64,000 nucleotides of DNA from Streptomyces sp. NBC_00285 (lineage in GTDB: Bacteria > Actinomycetota > Actinomycetes > Streptomycetales > Streptomycetaceae). Made by a program: the position numbers and the translations under genes. The notes beneath the pieces were generated by a model. The model made no database searches. It worked only from the letters and a program-made list of their open reading frames with translations, and was not told the origin of the DNA. The stretch is from contig NZ_CP108055.1 in the NCBI RefSeq assembly GCF_036174265.1, positions 5,208,001-5,272,000 of the forward strand. The letters run 5' to 3'. Below are positions 49,887 to 63,340 of this stretch, piece by piece (position 1 is the stretch's first letter; the number at the start of each line of letters is the position of its first letter).

Positions 49887-49983
49887 CCGGGAACGCGAGC
49901 GCCCCCCACGCACCCGCCAGAGCCAACCTACCCTTGCTGCCTTCCGGCCCTGGGGGAGTTCAGTCAGATAGCGCCGCGTGAGG
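49887..49983 (-). ncRNA. ffs: Signal recognition particle RNA (small bacterial type)
   Basis: On the minus strand the sequence contains the conserved SRP core: AGGGCCGGAAGGCAGCAAGG with the GGAA loop, flanked by long stems (CTCCCCC with the GGGGGG run). It is the small SRP RNA that binds Ffh for co-translational targeting. Ends are approximate. It lies next to dnaX, as in other actinobacteria. Confidence 0.88.
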
Positions 49984-50062
49984 GGCTGCCCAAACAGTAC
50001 CCGATGGCAGGGGTCGGGAACGAGTTCGCGAGCACTCCTCAACGTCTTGTATTGTTTGCCGC

Positions 50063-50147
50063 GGAGGATTCGCCTAGTGGCCTAGGGCGCACGCTTGGAA
50101 AGCGTGTTGGGGGCAACCCCTCACGAGTTCGAATCTCGTATCCTCCG
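50063..50147 (+). tRNA. tRNA-Ser (anticodon GGA)
   Basis: It folds with acceptor GGAGGAT / ATCCTCC, anticodon loop TTGGAAA, a long variable arm (GTTGGGGGCAACCCCTCAC) and T arm AGTTCGAATCT. Discriminator G is followed by an encoded CCA (50148-50150). The 3' part from position 50094 is the template for two downstream copies. Confidence 0.97.
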
Positions 50148-50186
50148 CCAGTGCCTCACCGGGCACGATGTCGAAGGGCCCCACCG
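50094..50186. repeat. attL-like 93-bp direct repeat (copy 1, within tRNA-Ser)
   Basis: This 93-bp segment runs from the last base of the 5' anticodon stem through the tRNA 3' end and into the terminator. It is identical to 55318-55410. Repeats of a tRNA 3' part at both ends of a segment are the mark of integration by a tRNA-targeting recombinase. Confidence 0.88.
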
Positions 50187-50205
50187 TTCGCGGTGGGGCC
50201 CTTCG
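50172..50205 (+). terminator. tRNA-Ser terminator
   Basis: A perfect 15-bp stem CGAAGGGCCCCACCG / CGGTGGGGCCCTTCG, with loop TTCG, follows the tRNA-Ser by 24 bp. Confidence 0.9.
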
Positions 50206-50370
50206 ACGTTTGGCGTGGCCGTTAGCCCAGGCCGTGTTCCGTCTTGAGCCAGGTGACCAGTCCATGTGCTCGGTCAGGGGCGAGGCGCGGATGAGGTCCT
50301 TCCACTCCGCGATCGGTCGGCCGTACTTCTTCTCGATCGAGGGGAAGTAGCTCGCGGGGCCCTTCACGGG
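50198..50370 (-). pseudogene. DUF4287-like gene remnant with frameshifts
   Basis: On the minus strand, one frame reads GPASYFPSIEKKYGRPIAEW and continues to LTEHM (to about 50263); the next frame continues LVTWLKTEHGLG and then stops (TAA near 50222). Together they match the DUF4287 core (SYFPSIEKKYGRPI... WLKTEHGLGHGHAN). At least one frameshift separates the pieces, and the 3' end runs into the tRNA-Ser terminator and the repeat, where homology stops. The gene was probably cut by the integration event. Confidence 0.65.
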
Positions 50371-50580
50371 TTCGGCCGTGGCTGCGTTTCCGTTCGTCTG
50401 CGGCGTGGTGGTGCTGCCTGTACGACCTGGACCGAGGCGCGAATACATCGGTCGGGAAGGTGTGATCCACGCCACAGTAAAGATCGAACGTCTGTCCTTG
50501 CCCCTCGTTAGAATTCGCTCGCCCCAAGAGCCCTCGTGAGCACCACAGGGACGGGGCCTGCGCTTTCCAGGGGGGAACGC

Positions 50581-53500
50581 ATGCTTCACACGTCCATCAG
50601 GGAACAACGCCGAAGACGACACGCGTCCAGGGGGGCCACTTCGCTTCTCGCGCTGATCGTCGCCGTCCTGGCCTCGTTCACCGCACAGACCGGCACGGCT
50701 TCCGCCGTGGCCGTGCCGACCCCGAAGACCACGGCCGCGGCCTCCGGGCCCGCGACACCGAAGTCACCGAAGTCACCGAAGTCACCGAAGTCACCGGAGA
50801 AGAAGGCGGCTCCCGAGGCGCTGCACGCCACCGCCGCGCGCGAGATCGGCCGTAGCGACGCGGCCGACACCTGCTCCGGGGCGATTGAGTCGGGAACGGT
50901 CTACACCTGCTCCGTCGGGCCCGAGGGCGGCGCGAGCTTCACCTTCGCCCTGCCGAACCCCGACGACCTGGTGTTCCTCCAGGTCGTCTCCACCGATGAC
51001 CAGCCCCAGTACCCGACGCTCACCGCACCGGACGGTTCGACGGTCACCTGCGACCGGCCCGACGGCGCGTACGGGGCGGCACGGTGTCCGACGAGCCGGG
51101 CCGGTACGTACACCGTGCAGGCCGGGGCCGCGCCGAGTGGCTTCTCGGTGTCGTACACGGCTCTGCTGTCCGGCACTTCCTGCACCGCGGTCTCCAAGGA
51201 CGACACCGCCCTCGGGGCGCCGAAGTCCCTCGCCGACACGCTTACCGCCGGGTCCGCCGGCCACTGCTTCGGCCTGCCGTCCGCCGCCGGGGACGTTCTG
51301 CGGAGCCATCTGTCCGCGTGGCAGGTGACCGGGACCGTTTACGACGCCACCGGCACGGAGGTCTGCACGACCCGTGAGAACAACGCCACGGACTTCGACT
51401 GCACCCTCAAGGGCAACGCACCGTTCCGTGTGCTGACGAACCAGTCGTACGCGGCGAGCATGGACTACAGCCTCACGTCGGCCCGCCTCTCCGCTCCCGC
51501 CGGCTGCCCCACCGTCCAGCCGCTGGCCTACGGCACGGTCCCGGACGCCACGTCCACCGCGCGCTGCCGCGTCCTGCACGTACCCGCCTCCGGGCCCTAT
51601 CTCTTCGACACCGTCGGCGACAGCGTCTCCGGGAGCCTCTACGCCACCGACGGCACGTCCCGCTGCACCCCCACGCTGCTCGCCCCCTGCACCCTGACCG
51701 CAGGTGATTACACCTGGGCGCGCGACGGGCGCAGCAGCGCCCCGGCCGCCTTCGGGGTCCGGCTGTACGCGACGAACCTGACGCAGGGCTGCACCGCCGT
51801 ACGCGACGACGGCTTCGCCTCCGGCGCGGTGAAGGGTGCCTTCGGCGGACCGGGCGAGCAGCAGTGTCTGTCCCTCCCGACGGCCACCGGCCACGGCCTC
51901 TACCTGATCGACCGGACACCGGACGGCGGAGTCAACCCGAGCTACCGAGTGTTCGACGCCAAGGGCATCGCGCAGTGCGACAACGACGACTCCCCGGTGA
52001 TCTGCAAGCTGACCGGGACCGCCCCGTTCCACGCGGTGCTCTCGGGCTCCGCCGCAGGTGAGTACCAGCTCGCCGTCCAGGACACCGGGAAGACCGCGGG
52101 CTGCACGGCCTGGCCGCAGTCGGCGTTCGACGGCACCTGGGGCGTGTCGGTTCCGCTCACCAGCACGACCCAGGCCGTGTGCCTGGGCATCGCCGCCGAC
52201 CAGCACTCCACCGCCGAGATGTTCGACTACACGAACAACACCAACAGGGTCAACGCCGCGGTGCGGGTGTTCGACGGCGCCGGCAACGAGCTGTGCACCA
52301 CTGTCGGCGGCTCCACGACCACCTGCCGGTTCACGGCCGGTGTCGGCTACACGGCCCTGCTGACGGGCACCGGCGCCTCGGACACGTACAAGCTGGTCCG
52401 CCGGGACATCTCTTCGACGGCGAAGTGCGCCGCTCCGGCCTCGCTCACCGTCGGTGGAGCCTCCGCGTCCTTCACCCTCGACTCCGCACTGGACAGCCGG
52501 TGTCTGCGTGTCACTGCAGCGGCCACGGACAAGCTCTGGATGTCCGCGCGGACCCCGACGGCCGCCCGGAACACGGGCGTGGTGCTGAAGGTGGTCGACG
52601 CCTCGGGCACGAGCGTGTGCCGGCAGTGGGGCGTCTCCTGCCGCGTCACCGGCTCGACCTCGTACATCGTCATCATCCTGGCCTCGGGGTACGACGAGAC
52701 CCCCATTTCCGCACACGTCGACACCTGGCGCGTCGGCACCGCCTCGGGCTGGGCCCCGGAGTGCACGGCGAACAAGGTGTCCCCGCAGGGCTTTTCCGTG
52801 CGGAGCGGCACGTTCACCGAGTCCGCAACCGCGTACTGCGCCGTGATCCCCATGCAGCCGTCGCAGCGCTTCCAGGTGTACGGCACCCAGAGCAGCAGCA
52901 CGGGCACCCCGTGGGTGAGCCTGCTGAGCACCACCCGCTTCGCCGGCGCGAGCGCCGACTACTCCTACCAGTGCAACGGTGACAACGCCGGTGTCTTCAG
53001 CTACTCCTGCCTCACCACCTCCAGCGCCTCCGCGGGCGACTACCTGATGCTGGTGAGCCCGTACCAGGCGGACACTCCGGTCGAGTACTCCATGCAGGGT
53101 GTCTGCAAGAGCGGCTGCACCACTCAGCCGAAGTCGGCCGACGTCACCTCGCTGGGCCCGACGAGCGGACCTGCCGGGACGTCCAACCAGGTTGTGCTGC
53201 ACGGCGCGAACCTGACCCTCGGCACCCAGGTGGAACTCCGGTCCGGGGACGACTCCCGCACCGCCGAGCCGGTCTCCGTCAGCGCCGATGGCACCACGCT
53301 CACCGTGCGGCTCGGTACGTACGACCTCCCTCCGGGCGCGTACGACCTGGTGATCGACAACGTCGGGTACACATCCGGCATCCCGTCACCCGGCTACCTT
53401 CCGGGCGCCTACACCGTCACCGCCGCACCGGCGGCGACCCACAACCGCCTCGTCCCGGTCTCGCCGACGCGCTTCCTGGACACCCGCAACGGCACCGGCG

Positions 53501-54552
53501 CCCCCAGGGCACGGGTCGGCGCGGGCGGAATCGTCGAGCTCAAGGTCGCCGGGACGCACGGTATCCCCGCCACCGGGGTCACCGCGGTCGTCATGAACGT
53601 CACCGCCGTCCGGCCCACCGGCAACGGCCACGTCGACGTGTACCCCACCGGTCAGCCGCTGCCGACCGTCTCCAGCGTCAACTACACGGCGCCGCAGACC
53701 ATCGCCAACCTGGTGACGGTTCCCGTACGGAACGGATCGGTGGACCTGCGCAACAGTGCGGGCTCCGTCGACCTCCTCGCCGACGTCACGGGCTACTACG
53801 CGGAGGGGAGTTCAGGTTCGGCCTTGACGCCGGTCTCGCCGACGCGCTTCCTGGACACCCGCAACGGCACCGGCGCCCCCAAGGCGCGGATCGGCGCGGG
53901 CGGAATCGTCGAGCTCAAGGTCGCCGGGACGCACGGTATCCCCGCCACCGGGGTCACCGCCGTCGTAATGAACGTCACCGCCGTCCGGCCCACCACCGGG
54001 GGCTACATCACCGTGTACCCCGGCGGCCAGTCGCTGCCGGCCGTATCCAACATCAACTTCCCCGCCGGCCGGACGATCCCCAACGTGGTCGTCGTCCCGG
54101 TCGTGAACGGTTCGGTGGACCTGCGCAACAGTGCGGGCTCCGTCGACCTCCTCGCAGATGTCACGGGATACTTCTCCGCCACCGGTTCGACCTTCACCCC
54201 GGCGGGCCCGCTGCGGCTACTGGACACACGCAGCGGACTGGGTGCCCGGCCCGGAGCCGTCGCCCCGGGCGGTCTGGTCAGCCTCCCGGTCACCGGTACG
54301 GCCGGCGTCCCCTCCTCCGGGGTCACGGCAGTGGTGCTCAACGTGACGGTCACGGCGCCTTCGGCCGGGGGATATCTGACGGTCCACCCGCACGGTCTGC
54401 CGGAGCCCGGGGTCTCGAACCTCAACTTCGGCGCAGGGCAGACTATTTCCAACATGGTCGTGGTGCCGGTGGTTGACGGACGGGTCACCTTCGCCAACCA
54501 CACCGGTTCGGTCCAGGTCATCGCCGACCTGGCCGGGTACTACAGCAGCTGA
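50581..54552 (+). CDS. Large secreted protein: seven four-cysteine modules, IPT-like domain, three repeat domains
   Basis: The 1,323-residue protein has a long signal peptide (about 1-40). After a KSPKSPKSPKSP linker (about 60-80) come seven modules of about 105 residues (about 95-860), each with four Cys in the order C-x(about 25)-C-x(about 35)-C-x(about 8)-C; several begin GCTA. Next is an IPT/TIG-like domain (about 865-960), then three domains of about 120 residues, each starting with FLDTR or LLDTR and ending VTGYY or LAGYY. The last three are common in actinomycete exported proteins of unknown role. ATG 50581 has GGGGGGAA upstream; the frame is open from GTG 50536. It lies inside the first tRNA-Ser interval and is the only intact gene there. 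Confidence 0.85.
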   Translation: MLHTSIREQRRRRHASRGATSLLALIVAVLASFTAQTGTASAVAVPTPKTTAAASGPATPKSPKSPKSPKSPEKKAAPEALHATAAREIGRSDAADTCSGAIESGTVYTCSVGPEGGASFTFALPNPDDLVFLQVVSTDDQPQYPTLTAPDGSTVTCDRPDGAYGAARCPTSRAGTYTVQAGAAPSGFSVSYTALLSGTSCTAVSKDDTALGAPKSLADTLTAGSAGHCFGLPSAAGDVLRSHLSAWQVTGTVYDATGTEVCTTRENNATDFDCTLKGNAPFRVLTNQSYAASMDYSLTSARLSAPAGCPTVQPLAYGTVPDATSTARCRVLHVPASGPYLFDTVGDSVSGSLYATDGTSRCTPTLLAPCTLTAGDYTWARDGRSSAPAAFGVRLYATNLTQGCTAVRDDGFASGAVKGAFGGPGEQQCLSLPTATGHGLYLIDRTPDGGVNPSYRVFDAKGIAQCDNDDSPVICKLTGTAPFHAVLSGSAAGEYQLAVQDTGKTAGCTAWPQSAFDGTWGVSVPLTSTTQAVCLGIAADQHSTAEMFDYTNNTNRVNAAVRVFDGAGNELCTTVGGSTTTCRFTAGVGYTALLTGTGASDTYKLVRRDISSTAKCAAPASLTVGGASASFTLDSALDSRCLRVTAAATDKLWMSARTPTAARNTGVVLKVVDASGTSVCRQWGVSCRVTGSTSYIVIILASGYDETPISAHVDTWRVGTASGWAPECTANKVSPQGFSVRSGTFTESATAYCAVIPMQPSQRFQVYGTQSSSTGTPWVSLLSTTRFAGASADYSYQCNGDNAGVFSYSCLTTSSASAGDYLMLVSPYQADTPVEYSMQGVCKSGCTTQPKSADVTSLGPTSGPAGTSNQVVLHGANLTLGTQVELRSGDDSRTAEPVSVSADGTTLTVRLGTYDLPPGAYDLVIDNVGYTSGIPSPGYLPGAYTVTAAPAATHNRLVPVSPTRFLDTRNGTGAPRARVGAGGIVELKVAGTHGIPATGVTAVVMNVTAVRPTGNGHVDVYPTGQPLPTVSSVNYTAPQTIANLVTVPVRNGSVDLRNSAGSVDLLADVTGYYAEGSSGSALTPVSPTRFLDTRNGTGAPKARIGAGGIVELKVAGTHGIPATGVTAVVMNVTAVRPTTGGYITVYPGGQSLPAVSNINFPAGRTIPNVVVVPVVNGSVDLRNSAGSVDLLADVTGYFSATGSTFTPAGPLRLLDTRSGLGARPGAVAPGGLVSLPVTGTAGVPSSGVTAVVLNVTVTAPSAGGYLTVHPHGLPEPGVSNLNFGAGQTISNMVVVPVVDGRVTFANHTGSVQVIADLAGYYSS
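53455..54000. repeat. Near-identical domain repeat in the secreted protein
   Basis: The first about 165 bp of the first and second C-terminal domains (53455-53620 and 53830-53995) are almost identical, 375 bp (125 codons) apart, showing recent duplication or conversion. The third domain is much more diverged. Confidence 0.85.
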
Positions 54553-55317
54553 CCACCAGGTCGGGGGCATGGCTCGCACCGCCCCCGACCGCTCCCTGTA
54601 CACACCGAAACTGCCGCGCGCTCCGGCGAACGTCGGCCGGGCTGCGGTGTGCTCTCTGCTCGTGCGCTGATCCGGCGGGCGAGTGCGAGCGGGCCCACTG
54701 CGGCGAGTGCCGTCCACCCTGAAGGCGCCCTGGTAGCGGCCGCGGGCGTGGACCGGGGCGAGGCCGGCGACGACCGAGGCGGCGATGCCGGCCGCGGAGT
54801 CCTCGCCCAGCGACCGGACGACCACCGACACCGCGAAGCGCGGTAGGCGTCGGCCCCACATCCGGAACGGATCATCCTCACCGAACCACTCCGCTTCCCG
54901 TCCGCGTCTCCTGGAACGTCTTTTCCCGGTAACACCGCCCCTGCGCGATAACAGCCCCGAACATGGCCGCGAACGTATGCCGCGGCACCCCAGCCAGTCC
55001 GACATGCCCTTCTGCCGATCAAGCTCATGGAACGGGAGGCAATCGTCCCGCTTGCCGATGACTCGAATCGCCATCCTCGGCGGCCATGGAGATCGATTCC
55101 CCCCTCATCAAACACCCGCCTCCAGGCTCGGAGTCAACCTGTCAGGCAGCACGAAACGCGATGCGTCAAGTGGGGCCTGCCCAGGCAGAACGCGACCGTC
55201 TCTGGTCTCACTTCCGGTCTCATTCGCCCACGTTCAGGGCCGTTCAGAAGATCGCGTGCAAGGCGCTTCAGCGCAGTTCAGGACGTTCCTGATGTTCCGT
55301 GAACCTCTGGACGAAGA
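54553..55317. other. Degenerate DNA between the secreted protein and the second repeat
   Basis: No intact gene. On the minus strand around 54715-54840 a frame reads ASVVAGLAPVHARGRYQGAF, like an MFS transporter segment (GLAP...RGRYQG), but without a start, membrane helices or a continuing frame. It is best seen as decayed sequence. The last part (54900-55317) has no recognisable content. Confidence 0.4.
54715..54840 (-). pseudogene. Possible MFS transporter fragment
   Basis: The segment VVAGLAPVHARGRYQGAFRV resembles the loop motif after the fourth helix of MFS exporters. The flanking residues are not hydrophobic and no start or stop frames a gene. Low confidence. Confidence 0.3.
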
Positions 55318-55410
55318 CTTGGAAAGCGTGTTGGGGGCAACCCCTCACGAGTTCGAATCTCGTATCCTCCGCCAGTGCCTCACCGGGCACGATGTCGAAG
55401 GGCCCCACCG
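55318..55410. repeat. attR-like 93-bp direct repeat (copy 2, tRNA-Ser 3' part)
   Basis: Identical over 93 bp to 50094-50186: it begins at the last base of the 5' anticodon stem and includes the 3' half of the tRNA and most of the terminator, but not the tRNA 5' half, so it cannot make a tRNA. It ends the first interval. Confidence 0.9.
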
Positions 55411-55427
55411 CGAGGTGGGGCCCTTCG
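55396..55427 (+). terminator. Terminator of the duplicated tRNA-Ser 3' part
   Basis: A 14-bp stem (55396-55409 / 55414-55427) with loop GCGA, in place of the TTCG loop of the first copy. Confidence 0.75.
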
Positions 55428-55907
55428 TCGTTGTCCGCCTCAGTTGGTCGCCTGCTGCTTGCTCGAGATGGGAGACAACCGACTTCGATGCGGAAGGATG
55501 AGTGGGCGGTCTCATAGACATGAGTGAGCGTGAGTACTGGGCCTCCCTGGCTCAGGCCCCGAGATGTTCGTGGGCCAGACCACACTCGCCCGCGTGGAAA
55601 GCTTCTTGATCGGCCACGACGCCCGGGCTCGGCGGCCGGCGTGACTGGCTGGTGGCCAGGCGCGGCCGGGAATGCCAACACGCTTGGACGGGTCTGGTCC
55701 GTCATATCGCCCTCCGGAGTGCGGTGAGGACGACTCCGCCTACGACCGGGGCGACGACCGTCTTCTGATCGACGGACACCGAGGACAGCGAGCGGCGGGC
55801 GGGTACCAGGTCGGTCGTTGTGGTGCGCTGTGGGAGTGTGCGGGCGGCGGGTGCGGGTTGTCGGGGTACTTGCACAGGAACACGGGTGGATCGATGCTGC
55901 CGCCTCC
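55411..55907. other. Region with no intact gene, one coding-like minus-strand tail
   Basis: No full gene. On the minus strand 55702-55800 has high third-position GC and reads SVSVDQKTVVAPVVGGVVLTAL before a stop, with a hydrophobic stretch, but no good start follows upstream. An AAGGAGG at about 55900 suggests a lost gene. It may be a truncated membrane protein. Confidence 0.4.
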
Positions 55908-56282
55908 TTATGCACTGAGGTGTTCGTGAAGCATCTGCCAGGTTCCGGCGTTGTTGACGAGCACGTTGGTGCCACGGCCTCTCCCTGACCGCGGCTGGCC
56001 GTCGATGGTTCCGGTCCAGGCGAACCGGTAGCGGCATACCGCTTGGTCATCGCTGTGAGCGATCCACTCGACGTCGTCGATCTGGTAGACATCGTCGCGG
56101 ATGGTGGCGAAGGTCTCGGAGATGGCGGAGAGGACGGCTTCGCGGCCACGGTGGGATCCGTCGGAGAACCAGTAGACGGCCTCGGGTGCGATCAGTGGGA
56201 CGAGCTGGGTGATGTCGTGGCTGTTGGTGGCCTGCTCGTAGGCGCGGATGAACTCGGTGAGCGGGACGGTGGGTTCGGGCAT
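55908..56282 (-). CDS. SnoaL-like/NTF2 family protein
   Basis: The 124-residue protein is a single NTF2-like domain: TEFIRAYEQATNSHDI at the start, the APEAVYWFSDGSHRGREAV segment, and the C-terminal GRGTNVLVNNAGTWQMLHEHLS. Such proteins are cyclases, isomerases or binding proteins; no activity is indicated. ATG 56282 has AAGGA upstream. It lies in the second repeat interval beside decayed transposase pieces. Confidence 0.82.
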   Translation of the reverse strand: MPEPTVPLTEFIRAYEQATNSHDITQLVPLIAPEAVYWFSDGSHRGREAVLSAISETFATIRDDVYQIDDVEWIAHSDDQAVCRYRFAWTGTIDGQPRSGRGRGTNVLVNNAGTWQMLHEHLSA

Positions 56283-56695
56283 CGGCAGGTCCTTTTCTCC
56301 CTTGCGGGGCGCGACAGGTGACAGGGGCGTGGTCAGGCCGCCGTGGTTTGTTCTCGCTCGACGAGGATGCCGTTGTCGAACGTGGCGCCCGCGCGGACCG
56401 GGCGACGAGGAGCGCCTTCCACGGACCCATCGCACCGTCGCCGACGAGCAGTTCGGGATCACGCATGCCCCGGCGAGGCAGTCGCGCAGCCGATCGGCCC
56501 ACGACTCGGTGGACTCACCGCCTCAAGGAACCTTCCCCACCCGAGTTGCTTCGGCACGAAGTGGTTGTGGCTCAAGAACTATTGCCTCGCGATCCCTCTC
56601 GCCATCGGCCCCGACTGGGATGTGAGTAAAGATCGCATTGCTGTCTATGCCGGCTTCGGTCGTGGTGTTGACCGGTTCACCGCGCCACCTCCACG
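56283..56695. other. Decayed sequence with an IS256-like fragment
   Basis: No intact gene. The IS256-like piece (56389-56517) is followed by an unrelated minus-strand tail reading AGATFDNGILVEREQTTAA to a stop near 56333, and a plus-strand frame ending WDVSKDRIAVYAGFGRGVDRF just before 56696. All seem fragmentary. Confidence 0.45.
56389..56517 (-). pseudogene. IS256-family transposase fragment, frameshifted
   Basis: On the minus strand ESTESWADRLRDC runs into a 2-bp frameshift near 56477 and continues as RRGMRDPELLVGDGAMGPWKAL, matching the middle part of IS256-type (Mutator) transposases (WxxLxxDLxxRGMxxPxLxVGDGAxGxWxAL). The rest of the element is absent. Confidence 0.6.
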
Positions 56696-57007
56696 ATGAT
56701 CGGTGTGATTGACCCCGCTGACCTTGCTGGATCCGTTCCGCCAAGTGCTGCTCCAGACACGGCCGGTGCTGTCTTCTTCATCCTTGTGGGAGCCGGCCTG
56801 CTGTGCGGAGGGACCGTCATCGGCACCGACTGCAAGAAGGTGGCGTCCCGCTTCTACGCGAAGGCGATGAACACGCAACGGACCAAACCGCCCCGCATCT
56901 ACGGCGGTCCTGCAGCAGGGGTGTTGCTCCTCAGGACGATCGGACTCTTGCAGATCCTCGCGGGCAGCGGCGCGGTTGCCGTCGGCATCCACTTCCTCAG
57001 CCGGTAG
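56696..57007 (+). CDS. Small membrane protein
   Basis: The 103-residue product has two likely membrane spans (about 24-44 and 75-98), joined by a basic loop with CKKVASRFYAKAMNTQRTK. The frame has coding-like composition but slightly lower third-position GC than neighbours. ATG 56696 lacks a clear ribosome site but overlaps a stop codon of a partial frame upstream. No family recognised. Confidence 0.55.
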   Translation: MIGVIDPADLAGSVPPSAAPDTAGAVFFILVGAGLLCGGTVIGTDCKKVASRFYAKAMNTQRTKPPRIYGGPAAGVLLLRTIGLLQILAGSGAVAVGIHFLSR

Positions 57008-57346
57008 GCCGTCGCTCCAGACGGGGCGCGTGCGTGTTTTAAGCCCGTCCTTTGGGCCCCCGAGGCCGCTGAGCAGTCGTCAACGACGACCACCAGGCGC
57101 ACATTCCTCCCTGCCCGAAGTCCTCCGGAGTCAACCGGTCGTGCCATTCCCGCGCCAGATCCTGCGGGGGACCACGGGAATACCAGGGAACGCGGTTTGC
57201 CGTCCTCGGACGCCGCCACCGTCAGTCCGCAGGTCGACAGGGGTGCCGGCCTTGAATCACCACAGTTTCCGAAGCTCAGGGCTGTCAGGACGCGGGAGCC
57301 CGGCAGACTCCTGTTCGCTTGAGGCTGGGCATGATCTTGCCGCCAA
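57008..57346. other. Region with no recognised gene
   Basis: Minus-strand frames read fragments such as SGREWHDRLTPEDFGQGGMC, which do not match a family I know. It may contain decayed sequence between the small membrane protein and the TerD-like gene. Confidence 0.4.
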
Positions 57347-58612
57347 CTATCTCGTCTTGAATTCGACCTTCCCGGTGCTCATGCGAAAGTTCCCGTTCGA
57401 GTAGAGGGTGGGTCGAGCCTCGACGTGGTTGCCGCTGTACTTCTCGACATGCCGGATCTCGACACCTCCGGGAACGGTGAAGTCGATCAAGGCGATTGCC
57501 ACCCAGTAGGACAAGTTGCGATTGTTGAACAGTGGCACCGTTACCGTGGAACCCCGCCCGTCGGTGATGACTGCCCGAGCACCGTAGGACTTGAACGAAC
57601 CGGCACCGTTTTCCACCGCGCTGTACGCACACAGCAGGACGAACCCCTGTAGGTCGGGGCGCCGAATGGTAATCGTCTCGCGGCCCGGCACCCGGGAGTC
57701 GCCGTCCAGGGCGATGTACGGCGGCGCAAAGGGCGAACCGAGTTGCCGGTAGTAGACGACCTGCTCTGACTTGTTCGGGCGCTTGCCGGTCGGGGTGACA
57801 AGACTTCCCGGGACATAGAGGGCGTACAGGTCGAGGTCAGCGCCAACTCGTCTTCGTGCCGCGCTCCCGCCGTTCCATTCGAGCGTGGCCGTCACGACAA
57901 GACTTGGGTCGTCCTTTCGCATGTCAATAGTCGCCTGGCCGGCCTTGGTGAGAGCGACTTTGCCCAGCGGGACGAGCGGGCGAGTCGGTACCGTCAACAG
58001 CGCCGATACGCCGGCCGATGAGACGTTCGGTGCATAGGTGGGCAGTGGCGGCGCAGCAGAAATGTGCCGAGTCTGCGTGGCCGTCGCAGCAGTTGGAGAC
58101 TGTGCTGTGGAAGGCCCCGGGTCATCTACAACGATGCCGAAGTCCGAGGCCAGCCCCGCCAGCCCGGTGTCCCACCCCTGGCCTACTGCCCTTGCCTTCC
58201 AAACCCCTGCCCGCCTGTACAGCTCGACGAGGATGACCACGGTCTCCCGATGCACGAGCGGCGGCGGCGCAAACGTGATCCGTGCGCTCCCGCAATCGAT
58301 GGCGGCATGAGGGGTGTTGCTCGCGTCGAAGTGAGTAGCCCGCAGTTCGGGGTCAATGCTGGCGACGATCGCAACACGGTCGACTGTCTCGGGGACCACG
58401 GTCAGATCCGCAACGATCGTCTGCCCGTTCAGTACGATCCCGTCCTGCGACGAGTGGTTGTAGAAGACCAGATCGTCATCACTCCGCACCTTTCCGTCCT
58501 GGGCGAGCAAGACGGCAGATACGTCGATTCCCGTAGTGAGCGAAGTGAGGGTGACGCGGCAGACCGCTGCGGACAGGACAGCGTTGCCGCCTTTGGCAAG
58601 GGTGGTGGTCAT
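57347..58612 (-). CDS. Two-domain TerD/TerA-like stress protein
   Basis: The 421-residue protein begins MTTTLAKGGNAVLSAAVCRV, the start of a TerD domain (1-165), with DDDLVFYNHSSQDGIVLNG and a DRVAIVASIDPE segment typical of calcium-binding TerD folds. A Pro/Thr-rich linker (about 170-210) leads to a second TerA-like domain (about 220-421), with GADLDLYALYVPG and ending MSTGKVEFKTR. In other bacteria such proteins belong to chemical-stress and phage-sensing ter clusters; no other ter gene is seen here, so it probably works alone or with genes elsewhere. ATG 58612 has GAGGG upstream. Confidence 0.85.
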   Translation of the reverse strand: MTTTLAKGGNAVLSAAVCRVTLTSLTTGIDVSAVLLAQDGKVRSDDDLVFYNHSSQDGIVLNGQTIVADLTVVPETVDRVAIVASIDPELRATHFDASNTPHAAIDCGSARITFAPPPLVHRETVVILVELYRRAGVWKARAVGQGWDTGLAGLASDFGIVVDDPGPSTAQSPTAATATQTRHISAAPPLPTYAPNVSSAGVSALLTVPTRPLVPLGKVALTKAGQATIDMRKDDPSLVVTATLEWNGGSAARRRVGADLDLYALYVPGSLVTPTGKRPNKSEQVVYYRQLGSPFAPPYIALDGDSRVPGRETITIRRPDLQGFVLLCAYSAVENGAGSFKSYGARAVITDGRGSTVTVPLFNNRNLSYWVAIALIDFTVPGGVEIRHVEKYSGNHVEARPTLYSNGNFRMSTGKVEFKTR

Positions 58613-59129
58613 AAGGTGCCCTCTCACGGTGGTGCGTACATGTTGGTACCCGCAGCCAGCCCATGTGGGACAAACAGTGATTTCCTGCGGTGAAGCACCT
58701 CCGAGGTGATCAGGTTGCTGAGGTTGCAAGGTGCGCCGACGGCTCGGCCACCCGTCTCAATTTCCCTCTCGTTCAGTTCCGTTCACGGCCGTTCAGGCGA
58801 GACCGGGAGCCGTCTCCGCACCGGCAGCCGGGCCTGCCTGAGGGCACTTGAACGTCCCCGGACACATTCCCGCATCCCCGCACCACAGGTGGAAAGCGAA
58901 TCAGGGCAACCCCTCACGGGTGTCAACGGGTTCGATTCTCGTTGTCCTCCGCCAGTTCCTCAGCGGGGCACGGTGGCAAAGGGCCCCGCTGTTCGCCGCG
59001 GCGGGGGAAGGGCCCCGGCTCTGTCTTCGTACCGTGTTCGCGGGTCGTGGAAGTGCGCCATCCTTGACCTTGGTGCCGGAGCAGCTTCGGCCCGGTTGTG
59101 ATGTTCCCTGTCTGTCGAGGTGCACCCTC
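58613..59129. other. Intergenic region with the third tRNA-Ser-like copy
   Basis: No gene. It carries the third, diverged tRNA-Ser 3' part near 58889-59015. A weak promoter for the helicase-associated protein presumably lies here. Confidence 0.5.
58889..59015. repeat. Third, diverged tRNA-Ser 3' copy
   Basis: Starting with GGTGGAAAGCG, the sequence follows the tRNA-Ser copies: GGGCAACCCCTCACG, GGTTCGATTCTCGT and GTCCTCCGCCAG. The variable arm is longer and differs, so it fits a different tRNA-Ser as its source. The region ends in a GC-rich hairpin (about 58981-59009). It closes the second interval. Confidence 0.75.
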
Positions 59130-61553
59130 ATGAAGTCCCGATCGACGCTTGCGGCTTGGCTGAGCGAACTCGACGGTCCCCGCCTGGCACGCGTGCTCGC
59201 CATGCGGGAGGACGCGGCCTCCTCCCCGGAACCACGCTCGGTGGGGGAACTGGCGGACCGGCTCCAACGTCCGGGGTCCGTGGCACTCGTCCTGCCGCAC
59301 CTCACGCTGCCGTGCTTGCAGGCCGCCGAGGCGTTGGCGGCCCTGGGAGGGCGAGCGACCCGGGACAGCCTCGCGCAGTTGCTCGGCTCGACGTCCCCTG
59401 CCGCTGTGCGCGCGCTGGACGCGACCCTGGAGGCGCTGTCGGATCGGGCGCTCGTGTGGCACGACGGCAACGAGACGCTCCGGATGCCCACGCCCTTGCG
59501 GCAGGCCTGGAGCACGCCTCTGGGGCTCGACGCCCCGCTGGAGGAGCTGCTGACCGGCGCCACCTCGGAGGAACTGCGCGGCATGCTGGCGGCCCTGGGT
59601 GTCAAGCCACCCGGCACCAAGCAGCAGCGGCTCGCGGCTCTGGTGGAGCATCACAGTGACGCGGAACGGGTCGCGGCGTTGGTGGCGGGGGCGCCGGCGG
59701 CAACACGGAAGGTGCTTGAGCAGAGCGCCAGGTCCACGCCGCGTCAGTCTCTGTTCGTCGTGTTCGGGGCTCCTGACATCGACAGCCGGCCAGGCGCCCG
59801 GTGGGCCCTCGACCGCGGGCTTCTGCTCCAGGACCGTCACCGGTACGGGCCCGTCCGGATGCCGGTCGAGGTGGCCTTGGCTCTACGGGGCCCGGGTTGG
59901 CACGCTCCGTTCGAACCTCTGCCGCCCGTCACCCAGTTGGTGCCCATCACCTCCTCGGAGGTGGAGCGGGAGGCCTCGGTGGCCGCCACCGCGTTCGCTG
60001 CCCACGCCGCCTCCGTCCTTTCGGCATGCGCGACCACTCCACCGGCCCGGCTGAAGTCGGGCGGGATCGGCGCACGTGAACTGGCCCGGCTCGGCAAGGC
60101 CGCCCAGGCGGACGACGCCGTCGTACGCATCGCCCTGGAGACCGCGTACGCCGCCGGGCTGCTGGCCCCCGACGGCGATCGCGTGCCTCCCACCGAGGCG
60201 TACGACGCCTGGGCCGAGCAGGAGCCCGCGGAACAACTCGCCGTACTGCTCCGGGCCTGGCGGGATCTGCCGCTCACCCCCACCCGGGCGCGTGACGAGG
60301 ACAACAAGGCGCTTCCCGCGCTCGCCGGTGCGCCTGACTGCGACGGTTGTCTGCAGGCCCGCCACGGGTTGCTCACCGCAGCGGCGGGGCTCCCGGCAGG
60401 ACAGGGTGTGAAGGTCGCTTCGGAGCTGGGGACGCTACTGGCCTGGCACCGTCCGCTCGCCGACGACGCGTCGCCCGAGGACGCGGCACCCTTCAGCACC
60501 GTGATCCGCGAAGGCGAACTGCTGGGCGTGCTGGCACGGGGTGCGCTGTCCCCGCTCGGTGCCCATCTGGCGGCACGCGCCGACGAAGAGCTCGGCATCA
60601 CGGCCCGGCGGCTGCTGCCCCCCGCGACCACGACGGCCCGGATCGGCGCGGACCTCACGGCCGTCGTCACCGGTACCCCGTCCGCGCGTCTCGCAACGAT
60701 GCTGGATTCGGTCGCCGACCGGGAGACCAGTGGCACGGCGTCGGTATGGCGCTTCAGTGCCGGCAGTATCCGACGGGCCCTGGACGCCGGCCACACCCCG
60801 GACGACATCACAGCCGACCTGGCAGCCGGCTCCGCCACGGCCCTGCCACAGCCGCTGACCTATCTCATCGCCGACACCGCACGAGGTCACGGACGGGTGC
60901 GCGTCGCCCCCGCGGCCTGTGTCATCCACGGCGACGAACCCGCACTCCTGGCCGAACTCGCCGCCCACCGCGCGCTGTCCAAGCTCGCCCTGCGGCAGCT
61001 CGCCCCGACGGTCCTGGTCAGCGGCAGCCCGCCCGGGGCAACTCTCGCCGCGCTCCGTGCCGCGGGCTACGCCCCGGTCGCCGAGACCGCCGGGGGAACG
61101 GTACGCATCGAGAAGCGCGTGCCGCAGCGGGCCGCCGCTGCCGTCCCGCCCCCGCGAAGGAACGTCGCACGGCGAGGCCCCCGGCCCACCGCAGCCCTCG
61201 CTACGGAGATGCCCGCCGGGATGGACGTTCTGGCCGACCGGCTGCTCAAGGCCCCGCCGATCGCGCCGGAACCCGACCCGTTCGGCAGCGGGGTGCCTTT
61301 CGCGACGGACACCGAGGAGATCGTCGCCGGATACGCGAAGCACCTGTCGTACAGCGACGTCCGTCAGGTCGCCCATGCCATCGACACCGGTGCGGCCATC
61401 ACCGTCGAGTACATCGCCACCTCGGGCAGCCGGACCGTACGCACCCTCAGCGACCTGGAGCTCGACCCGCCCTACCTCGAAGCCTGGTGCCACCTGCGCG
61501 AAGCGGAACGCGTCTTCACGCTCTCGCGCATCCATGGCGTGATGCCCGCATAG
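59130..61553 (+). CDS. Helicase-C-associated/WYL-like regulatory protein
   Basis: The 807-residue protein resembles those with a helicase conserved C-terminal 3 domain (XPB/Ssl2-like) and a WYL-type C terminus (ITVEYIATSGSRTVRTLSD). Repeated winged-helix-like segments (LLTGATSEELRGMLAALGVK and others) fill the N-terminal half. It has no Walker motifs, so it is not itself a helicase. Such genes are widespread in actinomycetes and of unknown function. ATG 59130 has GAGG upstream. It follows the tRNA-Ser repeats and is likely part of the core chromosome. Confidence 0.8.
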   Translation: MKSRSTLAAWLSELDGPRLARVLAMREDAASSPEPRSVGELADRLQRPGSVALVLPHLTLPCLQAAEALAALGGRATRDSLAQLLGSTSPAAVRALDATLEALSDRALVWHDGNETLRMPTPLRQAWSTPLGLDAPLEELLTGATSEELRGMLAALGVKPPGTKQQRLAALVEHHSDAERVAALVAGAPAATRKVLEQSARSTPRQSLFVVFGAPDIDSRPGARWALDRGLLLQDRHRYGPVRMPVEVALALRGPGWHAPFEPLPPVTQLVPITSSEVEREASVAATAFAAHAASVLSACATTPPARLKSGGIGARELARLGKAAQADDAVVRIALETAYAAGLLAPDGDRVPPTEAYDAWAEQEPAEQLAVLLRAWRDLPLTPTRARDEDNKALPALAGAPDCDGCLQARHGLLTAAAGLPAGQGVKVASELGTLLAWHRPLADDASPEDAAPFSTVIREGELLGVLARGALSPLGAHLAARADEELGITARRLLPPATTTARIGADLTAVVTGTPSARLATMLDSVADRETSGTASVWRFSAGSIRRALDAGHTPDDITADLAAGSATALPQPLTYLIADTARGHGRVRVAPAACVIHGDEPALLAELAAHRALSKLALRQLAPTVLVSGSPPGATLAALRAAGYAPVAETAGGTVRIEKRVPQRAAAAVPPPRRNVARRGPRPTAALATEMPAGMDVLADRLLKAPPIAPEPDPFGSGVPFATDTEEIVAGYAKHLSYSDVRQVAHAIDTGAAITVEYIATSGSRTVRTLSDLELDPPYLEAWCHLREAERVFTLSRIHGVMPA

Positions 61554-61626: not shown

Positions 61627-62406
61627 TCAGTGCACCGACAGTCCCCCGTCCACGAAGATCGACTGCCCCGTGACGTAGGCCGACGCCCCGCTCGCCAGGA
61701 AGACCGCGGCGCCCGCGAAGTCGTCGGCGAGGCCGTTGCGGCCGGTCATGGTGCGGGCGGCGAGGGCAGCGACCTGGTCGGGGTCGGTGGCGAGGCGGGC
61801 GTTGAGCGGGGTCATCACGAAGCCCGGGACGAGGGTGTTGCAGGTGACGCCGTGCGGGGACCAGGCCTCGGCCTGGGAGCGGGCCAGGGACTCCAACCCG
61901 CCTTTGGAGACGCCGTATGCGCCGCTCTGGACGAAGGCGCGGTGGGCCTGCTGGGAGGTGATGTGGATGATGCGGCCGAACCCGCGCTCGGCCATGCCGG
62001 GGCCGAACCGCCGGCCCAGGAGGAAGGGGGCCTCCAGGTTGACCGCCATCGTGGTGTCCCACACGTCGTCGGTCAGCTCGGCCATCGGCGGACGCAGGTT
62101 GATCCCGGCCGAGTTGACCAGGATGTCCGGCTCGCCGAACACACCGACGGCCGCCTCCGCCGCCGTACGAACGCCGTCCCTCGTGCCCAAGTCCCCTTTG
62201 ACCCAGCCCGCCCGGCAGCCGTCGGCCGTCAACTCCGCGACCGCGGCGGCCAGTTCCGTCTCCTTGCGGGCCACGATCACCACACTCGCCCCCGCCCGCG
62301 CCAACGCCCCCGCGATCGCCCGGCCGATGCCCGAACTCCCGCCGGTCACCAGCGCCACGCGGCCGTCCAGCGAGAACAGTTCGGAGAGATATGCCTGCGA
62401 AGTCAT
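61627..62406 (-). CDS. Short-chain dehydrogenase/reductase
   Basis: The 259-residue SDR has the NAD(P) motif TGGSSGIGRA, NSAG, the catalytic YGVSK (Tyr, Lys) and a C-terminal GQSIFVDGG. It reduces or oxidises an alcohol or ketone; similar proteins include gluconate 5-dehydrogenases. ATG 62406 begins MTSQAYLSELFSLDG. It is divergent from the DUF72 gene after only 30 bp. Confidence 0.92.
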   Translation of the reverse strand: MTSQAYLSELFSLDGRVALVTGGSSGIGRAIAGALARAGASVVIVARKETELAAAVAELTADGCRAGWVKGDLGTRDGVRTAAEAAVGVFGEPDILVNSAGINLRPPMAELTDDVWDTTMAVNLEAPFLLGRRFGPGMAERGFGRIIHITSQQAHRAFVQSGAYGVSKGGLESLARSQAEAWSPHGVTCNTLVPGFVMTPLNARLATDPDQVAALAARTMTGRNGLADDFAGAAVFLASGASAYVTGQSIFVDGGLSVH

Positions 62407-62436
62407 GCCCGCACCGTAAGCCGGTACCCGCCCCCC

Positions 62437-63340
62437 ATGTCCCGCACCCCCATGACCCGCACCTCGATGACCGGCACCCTGGAGACCGACGGCCTCCCGC
62501 CCCGGATCCTTCTCGGCGCCTGCTCCTGGACCGATCCCGCGCTGGTCCGCAGCGGCTGGTATCCGCGTGGGCGGCGGGACGCGGAGGGGCGGCTGCGGCA
62601 CTACGCCGAGCGGTTCCCCGTCGTCGAGGTCGACGGCACCTTCTACGCGCTGCCCGGCGCAGCGCAACAGCCGGCTGTGGGTGGAGCGGACGCCGCCCGA
62701 GTTCGTGTTCGACGTGAAGGCGTACGCGTCGCTCACCGGGCATCCGGTGAAGCAGGCCGCCCTCCAGGACACCGCCCCGGGCGAGGTGTGGAAGCGGTTC
62801 GCCGCCGGGATCGAGCCGTTGCGGGAGGCCGGGCGGCTCGGCGGGGTGCTGTTCCAGTTCCCGCCGTGGTTCCGGCCGGGGGCGCGGGCGGAGAGGTTCC
62901 TGGAGGAGACCGCAACGCGGACCGCCGGGTGGCCGGTCCACCTGGAGTTCCGGCATCCGTCCTGGTGGGAGGGGCGGCAGAAGGACCTGACCGGCGCGTT
63001 GCTGAGCACGTACGACTTCGCCGCCGTGGCCGTCGACATGGCCCAGGGGCTGCCCGCCTCGCTGCCGCCGGTCACCCCCGTCACCTCGCCGCGGCTGTCC
63101 GTCGTGCGGTTCCACGGGCGCAGTGTCTCGTGGGGCCGCGGCAGCAAGGAGGACCGTTTCCGGTACGACTACTCGCGCGCCGAACCAGCCGAGTGGGTAC
63201 CGCGGTTGGACGCCCTGGCCGATCGGGTCGACCGGCTCCACGTGCTGTTCGACAACTGCTGCGGAGCGGCCGCCGTGCACGCCGCCGAGACCATGGCCGA
63301 GTTGCTCAGCCGAAAATCCTCACCGTCTTCGTCACGCTGA
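62437..63340 (+). pseudogene. DUF72 family protein with a frameshift
   Basis: The frame from ATG 62437 reads MSRTPMTRTSMTGTL, then GACSWTDPALVRSGWYPRG and VEVDGTFYALPG, where DUF72 proteins continue. Near 62660 the match shifts to the next frame (QRNSRLWVERTPPEFVFDVK), one base later, and continues correctly to 63340 (HLEFRHPSWW, VRFHGR). Either a sequencing error, or a real frameshift that inactivates the gene. DUF72 proteins adopt a TIM-barrel fold; function unknown. It overlaps the copper gene by 35 bp at the 3' end. Confidence 0.8.

Follow-up and report, generated by a model that had tools for sequence, protein, structure and literature searches.

The tRNA-Ser(GGA) gene in the stretch of Streptomyces sp. 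NBC_00285 analysed here (64,000 nucleotides, positions 5,208,001 to 5,272,000 of contig NZ_CP108055.1, hereafter the window) is followed by the stacked remains of at least two, and probably three, mobile DNA elements. Element 1 (E1) and element 2 (E2) end in copies of the 3' part of the tRNA; element 3 (E3) would correspond to a helicase gene further to the right. Very probably the interval is a tandem accretion array, produced by serial entry at the tRNA gene by a family of Streptomyces tyrosine integrases. Tandem accretion is already known, and the window is one more array of this kind. What it adds is a barcode of short repeats (arms) at the element ends by which integrase-less remnants can be typed, a class of elements without integrase, and a settled helicase layer.

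Copies of the tRNA 3' end

50063..50150, plus strand: tRNA-Ser(GGA), the integration target (ARAGORN; Rfam RF00005 at 50063-50147)
50094..50186, plus strand: attachment (att) core and start of the terminator, copy 1
55318..55410, plus strand: att core and start of the terminator, copy 2, exact
58889..58996, plus strand: att core and terminator, copy 3, decayed

From the anticodon loop on, copies 1 and 2 are identical over 93 bases (50094-50186 and 55318-55410). This exact repeat had been reported in a first-pass annotation of the sequence and was confirmed base for base by alignment; with 93 identical bases, chance repetition is not an issue. Past these bases, the terminator of copy 2 has 2 bases deleted and 2 changed relative to copy 1. 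The diverged third copy of that annotation is present, but it extends from 58889 to about 58996 and not to 59015. In its tRNA part, 57 nt long, 8 bases are mismatched, 11 inserted and 2 deleted, and rightward DNA similarity with relatives begins again at 58996. The 3' part of the present tRNA would be expected to have come with the element that entered last. Copy 2 is undecayed although it has lain outside a working tRNA since the entry of E1, and copy 3 is decayed, which fits an order in which the newest element lies nearest the tRNA.

The tRNA with its terminator was matched in 149 of 150 Streptomyces genomes. Among the matches listed, most extra copies have their start around the anticodon loop (tRNA positions 23-34), with about 2 to 48 kb separating each from the tRNA or from the copy next to it. 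Core plus terminator had 7 matches in plasmid records and none in phage records. Forty stretches from 38 genomes were picked by hand for comparison, 20 for their extra copies and 20 from among the best complete matches; neither these nor 20 further loci, hand-picked from a search of 392 genomes, are a random sample. In 28 of the 40 stretches dnaX lies on the left, as in the window, and some of the other stretches end early. The site is an integration hotspot in Streptomyces, variably occupied across relatives, and in the window copies of the tRNA 3' end stand between two or more elements, as expected of an accretion array. According to the first-pass annotation, relatives all sharing the same three copies and cargo would have spoken against integration; copy number, spacing and cargo were found to differ between relatives.

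Integrases at the same core in relatives

The first-pass annotation saw no recombinase in either interval, and this was borne out. A PF00589 search of the whole genome gave 19 matches, none of them within the array, and tblastn of four integrases from the hotspot against window positions 50151-58900 gave a best E value of 0.010, which is chance level; no integrase or recognisable remnant was found. Relatives do have a cognate integrase at the same core. Of two identical integrases in G137 (PF00589), one lies about 0.1 kb behind the tRNA and the other behind the second copy. These two genes (L037 and L038; G137:C1:7868956 and 7890455) are about 21.5 kb apart and are perhaps a tandem pair of one element. 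In G141 a PF00589 match with a stop lies about 0.1 kb behind a displaced copy, and further matches behind the tRNA or a displaced copy are at 1.4 kb in G091 and 9.3 kb in G025. With the four hotspot integrases as queries, 22 of the 40 stretches yielded intact or partial relatives. The hotspot as a whole had at first seemed devoid of integrases, an idea that was dropped when the PF00589 search found them; the regular-expression motif used before was too strict.

A scan of GTDB genome contigs yielded 318 integrase relatives, the best 80 of which were kept. The tRNA-Ser(GGA) core lies within 400 bp of the integrase C-terminal end at 47 of these 80 loci and 0.5-7.4 kb from it at 25; at the remaining 8 there is none on that side. 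The two integrases tested match Phage_integrase and Phage_int_SAM_3. A search for elements with the same att core had been proposed as a means of identifying the integrase; a tyrosine integrase family is present at this core in relatives, and serial site-specific integration at the tRNA is supported. The boundary at the anticodon loop had been taken to indicate a particular class of tyrosine recombinase (sublocation classes of tRNA integration were reportedly described by Williams in 2002). It fits in kind, but the actual identification came from the integrases themselves.

The nearest relative of the hotspot integrases in the same genome (G000:C1:5913870-5915153, L273) is about 37% identical, and the 20-kb stretch around it contains a tRNA-Thr gene; no cognate integrase is therefore seen there now, and the idea that an integrase of this genome acts in trans at present was abandoned.

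Arm sites and integrase clades

A pair of 7-mers, 12 bp apart, precedes most displaced copies, many of which also have spaced copies of CGTTCA. A second 7-mer pair, the left arm, lies behind the tRNA end, mostly at +61 to +66. The 7-mers fall into four arm types: CGTCTCA, AGTCTCA, GGTCTCA and GGTTGCA. Arm type follows the integrase clade. CGTCTCA accompanies 45 of 46 G091-like integrases with the core upstream, and GGTCTCA or GGTTGCA accompanies 20 of 21 G025-like integrases, the odd one being just below the cut-off; any of the four types is absent from a third clade (0/5). On a tree of 79 integrases the five arm labels require 8 changes, the mean after shuffling being 30.9, and none of 200 shuffles was as low. 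The integrases of L045 and L047 are identical and so are not independent.

The two arms of an element also tend to agree. For this test 44 elements outside the window were cut out; the 11 without two arms scoring at least 12 of 14 were excluded and identical intervals were counted once. The four motifs had been recognised in the same data beforehand; each element end was scored separately, so the pairing was not built into the test. Both ends were of the same type in 29 of 33 elements, the expectation being 12.1, a result that none of 100,000 permutations reached. The window elements stood outside this test, and copy 3, which is below the core cut-off, was admitted by exception. Two exact arm patterns gave 16 matches in the 150 genomes (two of them overlapping at one place), 15 of these beside a tRNA-Ser(GGA) core; the reversed patterns gave none in the same genomes.

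In the window, right arms are present in both elements; no left arm was seen in E1, and half of one, read by eye, in E2. Judged by their sequence, these repeats are putative arm-type sites. As E1 has a GGTCTCA arm and E2 has arms of the CGTCTCA type, two different integrase clades probably served the two elements.

Elements 1 and 2

50151..55317: E1, right arm of GGTCTCA type, without integrase, left arm not found
50438..54840: E1 cargo stretch common to G232 at 96.6% identity, there also inside a tRNA-Ser(GGA) array
50536..54552, plus strand: 1338-aa open reading frame (ORF), cargo of E1
55204..55246, plus strand: right arm of E1, a GGTCTCA pair 12 bp apart (55204, 55216), then a CGTTCA pair 10 bp apart (55231, 55241)
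55411..58888: E2, without integrase
55436..55447, plus strand: half of a CGTCTCA-type left arm, read by eye (CGCCTCAGTTGG), in the position that intact left arms have (+61 from the tRNA end)
55908..56462, minus strand: SnoaL/DUF4440-like ORF (Pfam)
57347..58729, minus strand: TerD-domain ORF, cargo of E2 (Pfam)
58753..58795, plus strand: right arm of E2, a CGTCTCA pair (second unit changed), then spaced CGTTCA copies

The cargo of E1 recurs at the same site in a distant genome. In G232, dnaX and tRNA-Ser(GGA) are followed by an element whose integrase is of the third clade, by a core and finally by the E1 cargo. The cargo is 96.6% identical between the window and G232, compared with 76-85% for the host stretches on either side and 93% for the tRNA stretch itself. 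By tblastn, neither the window nor G232 has a hotspot integrase in the interval from the neighbouring core to the cargo or beyond the cargo. The 1338-aa ORF has no Pfam, NCBIfam or PADLOC match at the limits used; an export signal is suspected from a reading by eye. Near its end are three 300-nt repeats (window 53455-54498), the others being 86% and 61% identical to the first. DNA relatives of the ORF were found in 29 of 382 genomes, its own included, many of them matching only the repeat part.

The cargo of E2 is likewise found elsewhere. The stretch 57256-58857 is 88% identical in G177, where it adjoins a tRNA-Ser copy and the host flank is 76-81% identical. Relatives of the TerD ORF in G177, G032 and G254 are about 90% identical over residues 40-460. 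At the loci in G032 (L142, G032:C71) and G254 (L143, G254:C1:8909973) TerD is accompanied by CGTCTCA arms, and the sequence departs from the tRNA soon after the start of the core; these might be insertions at secondary sites or deletions through the core. PADLOC gave no match for the TerD ORF, and the window cargo searched with it does not look like defence. No rep or tra genes were seen among the window ORFs searched in Pfam, which were only part of those of E1 and E2.

The right flank and the helicase gene

59130..61553, plus strand: Helicase_C_3/WYL gene, candidate E3 cargo; arms not found in the window, found in some relatives (Pfam)
61627..63147, minus strand: short-chain dehydrogenase ORF, where synteny with G140 and G141 resumes
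49892-49990, minus strand: bacterial small signal recognition particle (SRP) RNA, between dnaX and the tRNA on the left (Rfam RF00169)

The first-pass annotation treated the gene at 59130 as host flank and expected an empty site to consist of the tRNA followed by this gene. That arrangement was indeed seen, with the tRNA-Ser and a homologue of the gene within about 0.5 kb of each other in L046, L066, L067 and L148, but L067 keeps an integrase remnant between them. The gene itself does not behave as a fixed flank. Outside the variable part, synteny with G140 and G141 is back only at about 61627, beyond the gene, and in G140 the gene is 77% identical to that of the window, compared with mostly 87-92% for adjacent DNA. 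The 20 kb of L054 lack it, and L041 and L069 have a fragment only.

In some relatives the gene lies between arms. In L046 and L147 it has a GGTTGCA arm on either side, with a core behind the right one; L148 has both GGTTGCA arms with a partial core behind, L149 both arms with no core behind, and L055 a right arm and a partial core. Altogether 11 loci with a long helicase match were searched for an arm behind the gene (L031, L034, L052, L152, L154 and L157 were left out of this search). It was found in the five just named, with a short weak match in L066 and L150 and none in L067, L145, L151 and L153; the stretch of L145 ends soon after the gene. The helicase gene was therefore rejected as host flank as a general rule, since in some relatives it is part of an older element with GGTTGCA arms. 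Behind the gene the window showed neither arm nor core, so E3 is deduced from these relatives. With PADLOC the gene matched only WYL and, weakly, a reverse-transcriptase-associated WYL model.

In L145, L147, L149 and L150 the core preceding the helicase gene has a terminator unlike that of the window tRNA. Elements thus seem to bring their own terminator together with the tRNA end.

Proposed history and alternative explanations

The accretion reading is built on observations: the cores and arms, the link between arm type and integrase clade, the agreement of the two ends of elements in relatives, and the E1 cargo at the same site in another genome. The attP core of a mobile element, corresponding to the tRNA from anticodon loop to terminator, would recombine with the tRNA gene, and each entry would restore the tRNA and shift the previous 3' part outward. 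The order of entry, oldest first, would be E3 with the helicase gene, E2 with TerD and E1 with the large ORF. The integrases responsible would either have been lost or have acted from elsewhere. As there is no integrase, E1 lacks a left arm, E2 has half of one and the right core of E2 is decayed, both elements are probably stranded.

That the copies arose by segmental duplication or by homologous recombination between tRNA-Ser genes is extremely improbable. The copies do have tRNA sequence and terminator in common, but among the matches listed nearly all displaced copies begin at tRNA positions 23-34, left arms keep mostly to +61 to +66, and one integrase family is found at the same site. The origin of copy 3 is a narrower matter. 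The first-pass annotation suggested that it came from the tRNA-Ser of another host, and an insertion of about 10 bases does set its variable-arm/T-stem region apart. It is nevertheless highly unlikely that an element brought this copy from a host whose tRNA-Ser differs. A search of the same genome with copy 3 found, besides itself, only copies 1 and 2 at E values better than 0.01, and among the matches listed from 392 genomes its tRNA part was matched at about 85% at best. The inserted form disrupts normal tRNA spacing, as read by eye, and outer copies elsewhere (L034, L049) are likewise diverged. On these searches and the alignment the foreign origin was rejected; judging from its sequence copy 3 looks decayed, its insertions and deletions fitting a copy no longer under selection.

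Under serial accretion there are two ways in which the window elements might have come to lack an integrase. We lean towards E1 and E2 having entered as normal autonomous elements and having lost their integrase genes by later deletion. The integrases at the site in relatives include intact, frameshifted and partial ones, and the arm type of E2 is nearly always accompanied by an integrase; on the other hand, neither window element retains a remnant, and for the arm type of E1 absence of an integrase is the rule in the loci examined. Possible, but rather unlikely, is that E1 belongs to a class of integrase-less cassettes with GGTCTCA or GGTTGCA arms that are inserted and moved in trans by the G025-like integrases of other elements. 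In hand-picked loci that had not been retrieved through their integrase there were 24 elements with both arms; an integrase sequence was found in 2 of 11 with GGTCTCA or GGTTGCA arms versus 12 of 13 with CGTCTCA or AGTCTCA arms (Fisher p 5e-4). Nine integrase-less intervals (G107, G141, G136, G049, G128, G023, G094, G285 and G248) contained, by coordinates, no PF00589 match, and the eight searched for PF00239 (all but G141) gave none either. The E1 cargo is also common to distant genomes, and in both tblastn showed no hotspot integrase from the neighbouring core to the cargo or beyond it. However, in 19 of 21 cases a G025-like integrase has cargo in front of it and lies 1.1-7.4 kb deep in the element, so that one deletion can remove them cleanly with both arms kept; in the other class the integrase is mostly against the left arm, and remnants are therefore expected. 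L057 retains a 73-aa integrase remnant, L060, one of the nine integrase-less elements, has unequal ends, E1 itself has one arm only, and its genome is now without a cognate integrase.

A wider proposal, more speculative and on the doubtful side, is that Streptomyces share a pool of small integrase-less cassettes, each between two matching arm sites specific to one clade, that come and go at the tRNA by means of the integrases of other elements, with tRNA-Ser(GGA) as a common cargo dock and the helicase/WYL gene as a cassette that has settled. This gene is found beside tRNA-Ser(GGA) in a good number of species. Example cargo of arm-bracketed integrase-less elements includes helicases, ATPases and a PIN-domain protein; the cargo proteins for PADLOC and domain searches were hand-picked, and those from integrase-less elements comprised a HamB-like helicase (L039), a PIN protein (L042), an ATPase (L034) and an SNF2 helicase (L226).

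Several observations weigh against the accretion reading. The ends are unequal in 4 of the 33 relatives' elements (L034, where two types tie by eye, L060, L147 and L195), one of the 16 exact arm matches (L182) lies away from any core, and E2-type arms also occur at other places in some genomes. The left arm of E1 was not found, so its ends cannot be matched, and the left half-arm of E2 was read by eye and scores too low for the arm scan to accept. To the right of the E1 cargo G232 showed no second core, and the decay of the left arm in that genome precludes typing. Any intact att pair or circular form is putative.

Relation to known systems

Accretion of actinomycete integrative and conjugative elements (AICEs) at tRNA-Arg has been described in a Streptomyces population (PMC9513070), which, as far as the relevant passages go, resembles the present case in several elements per tRNA gene, identical direct repeats, a remnant without traB and the idea of rescue by a helper integrase. 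It differs in the tRNA used; here, in addition, arms type the integrase of integrase-less remnants and a flanking gene is cargo in relatives. Tandem AICEs at tRNA-Arg such as Sav3708/Sav3728 (PMC3218068) are similar in that two elements with different integrase subfamilies share one tRNA, and differ in the tRNA and in being reported there, in the portion that treats them, as AICEs with their own integrases. The Synteruptor study (PMC11195616) reports a genomic-island hotspot at tRNA-Ser in S. ambofaciens, S. coelicolor and others, with distinct islands beside one tRNA-Ser place that is empty in one strain; its sections on this hotspot do not state the att core, arms, layering or which tRNA-Ser is concerned.

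At ssrA of Dehalococcoides, tandem islands lie between repeats of a tRNA-like gene, and 15 islands without an integration module were called possible cis-mobilizable elements (CIMEs) in the part of that paper dealing with them (PMC3146451); recombinase and target differ there, being a serine recombinase and transfer-messenger RNA (tmRNA). A CIME has functional attL and attR and no integrase, and the window elements, which show cores and some arms, might be compared with it. Hitchers such as clusters of attC sites lacking integrases (CALINs) and miniature inverted-repeat transposable elements (MITEs) also have recombination sites without a recombinase and are moved in trans (PMC11389934); here movement in trans would be a deduction, and a tyrosine integrase with arm sites at a tRNA is concerned. 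No description of arm-typed tRNA-Ser(GGA) arrays, or of the settled helicase layer, was recognised in the literature searched, the coverage of which was limited, so that absence is unproven.

Significance

Integrase-less remnants usually cannot be assigned to an integrase; here the arm repeats at their ends point to the responsible clade. With arm typing, movement in trans can be put to a test using defined parts. The helicase gene illustrates that an apparent chromosomal landmark beside a tRNA can itself be mobile cargo. Among hand-picked proteins of elements with G025-like integrases, PADLOC found type I, II and III restriction models and LmuB of Lamassu (from the integrase-bearing loci L264, L231, L237, L256 and L035). 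In some Streptomyces, then, the cargo of integrase-bearing elements at this tRNA includes genes for restriction and other defence.

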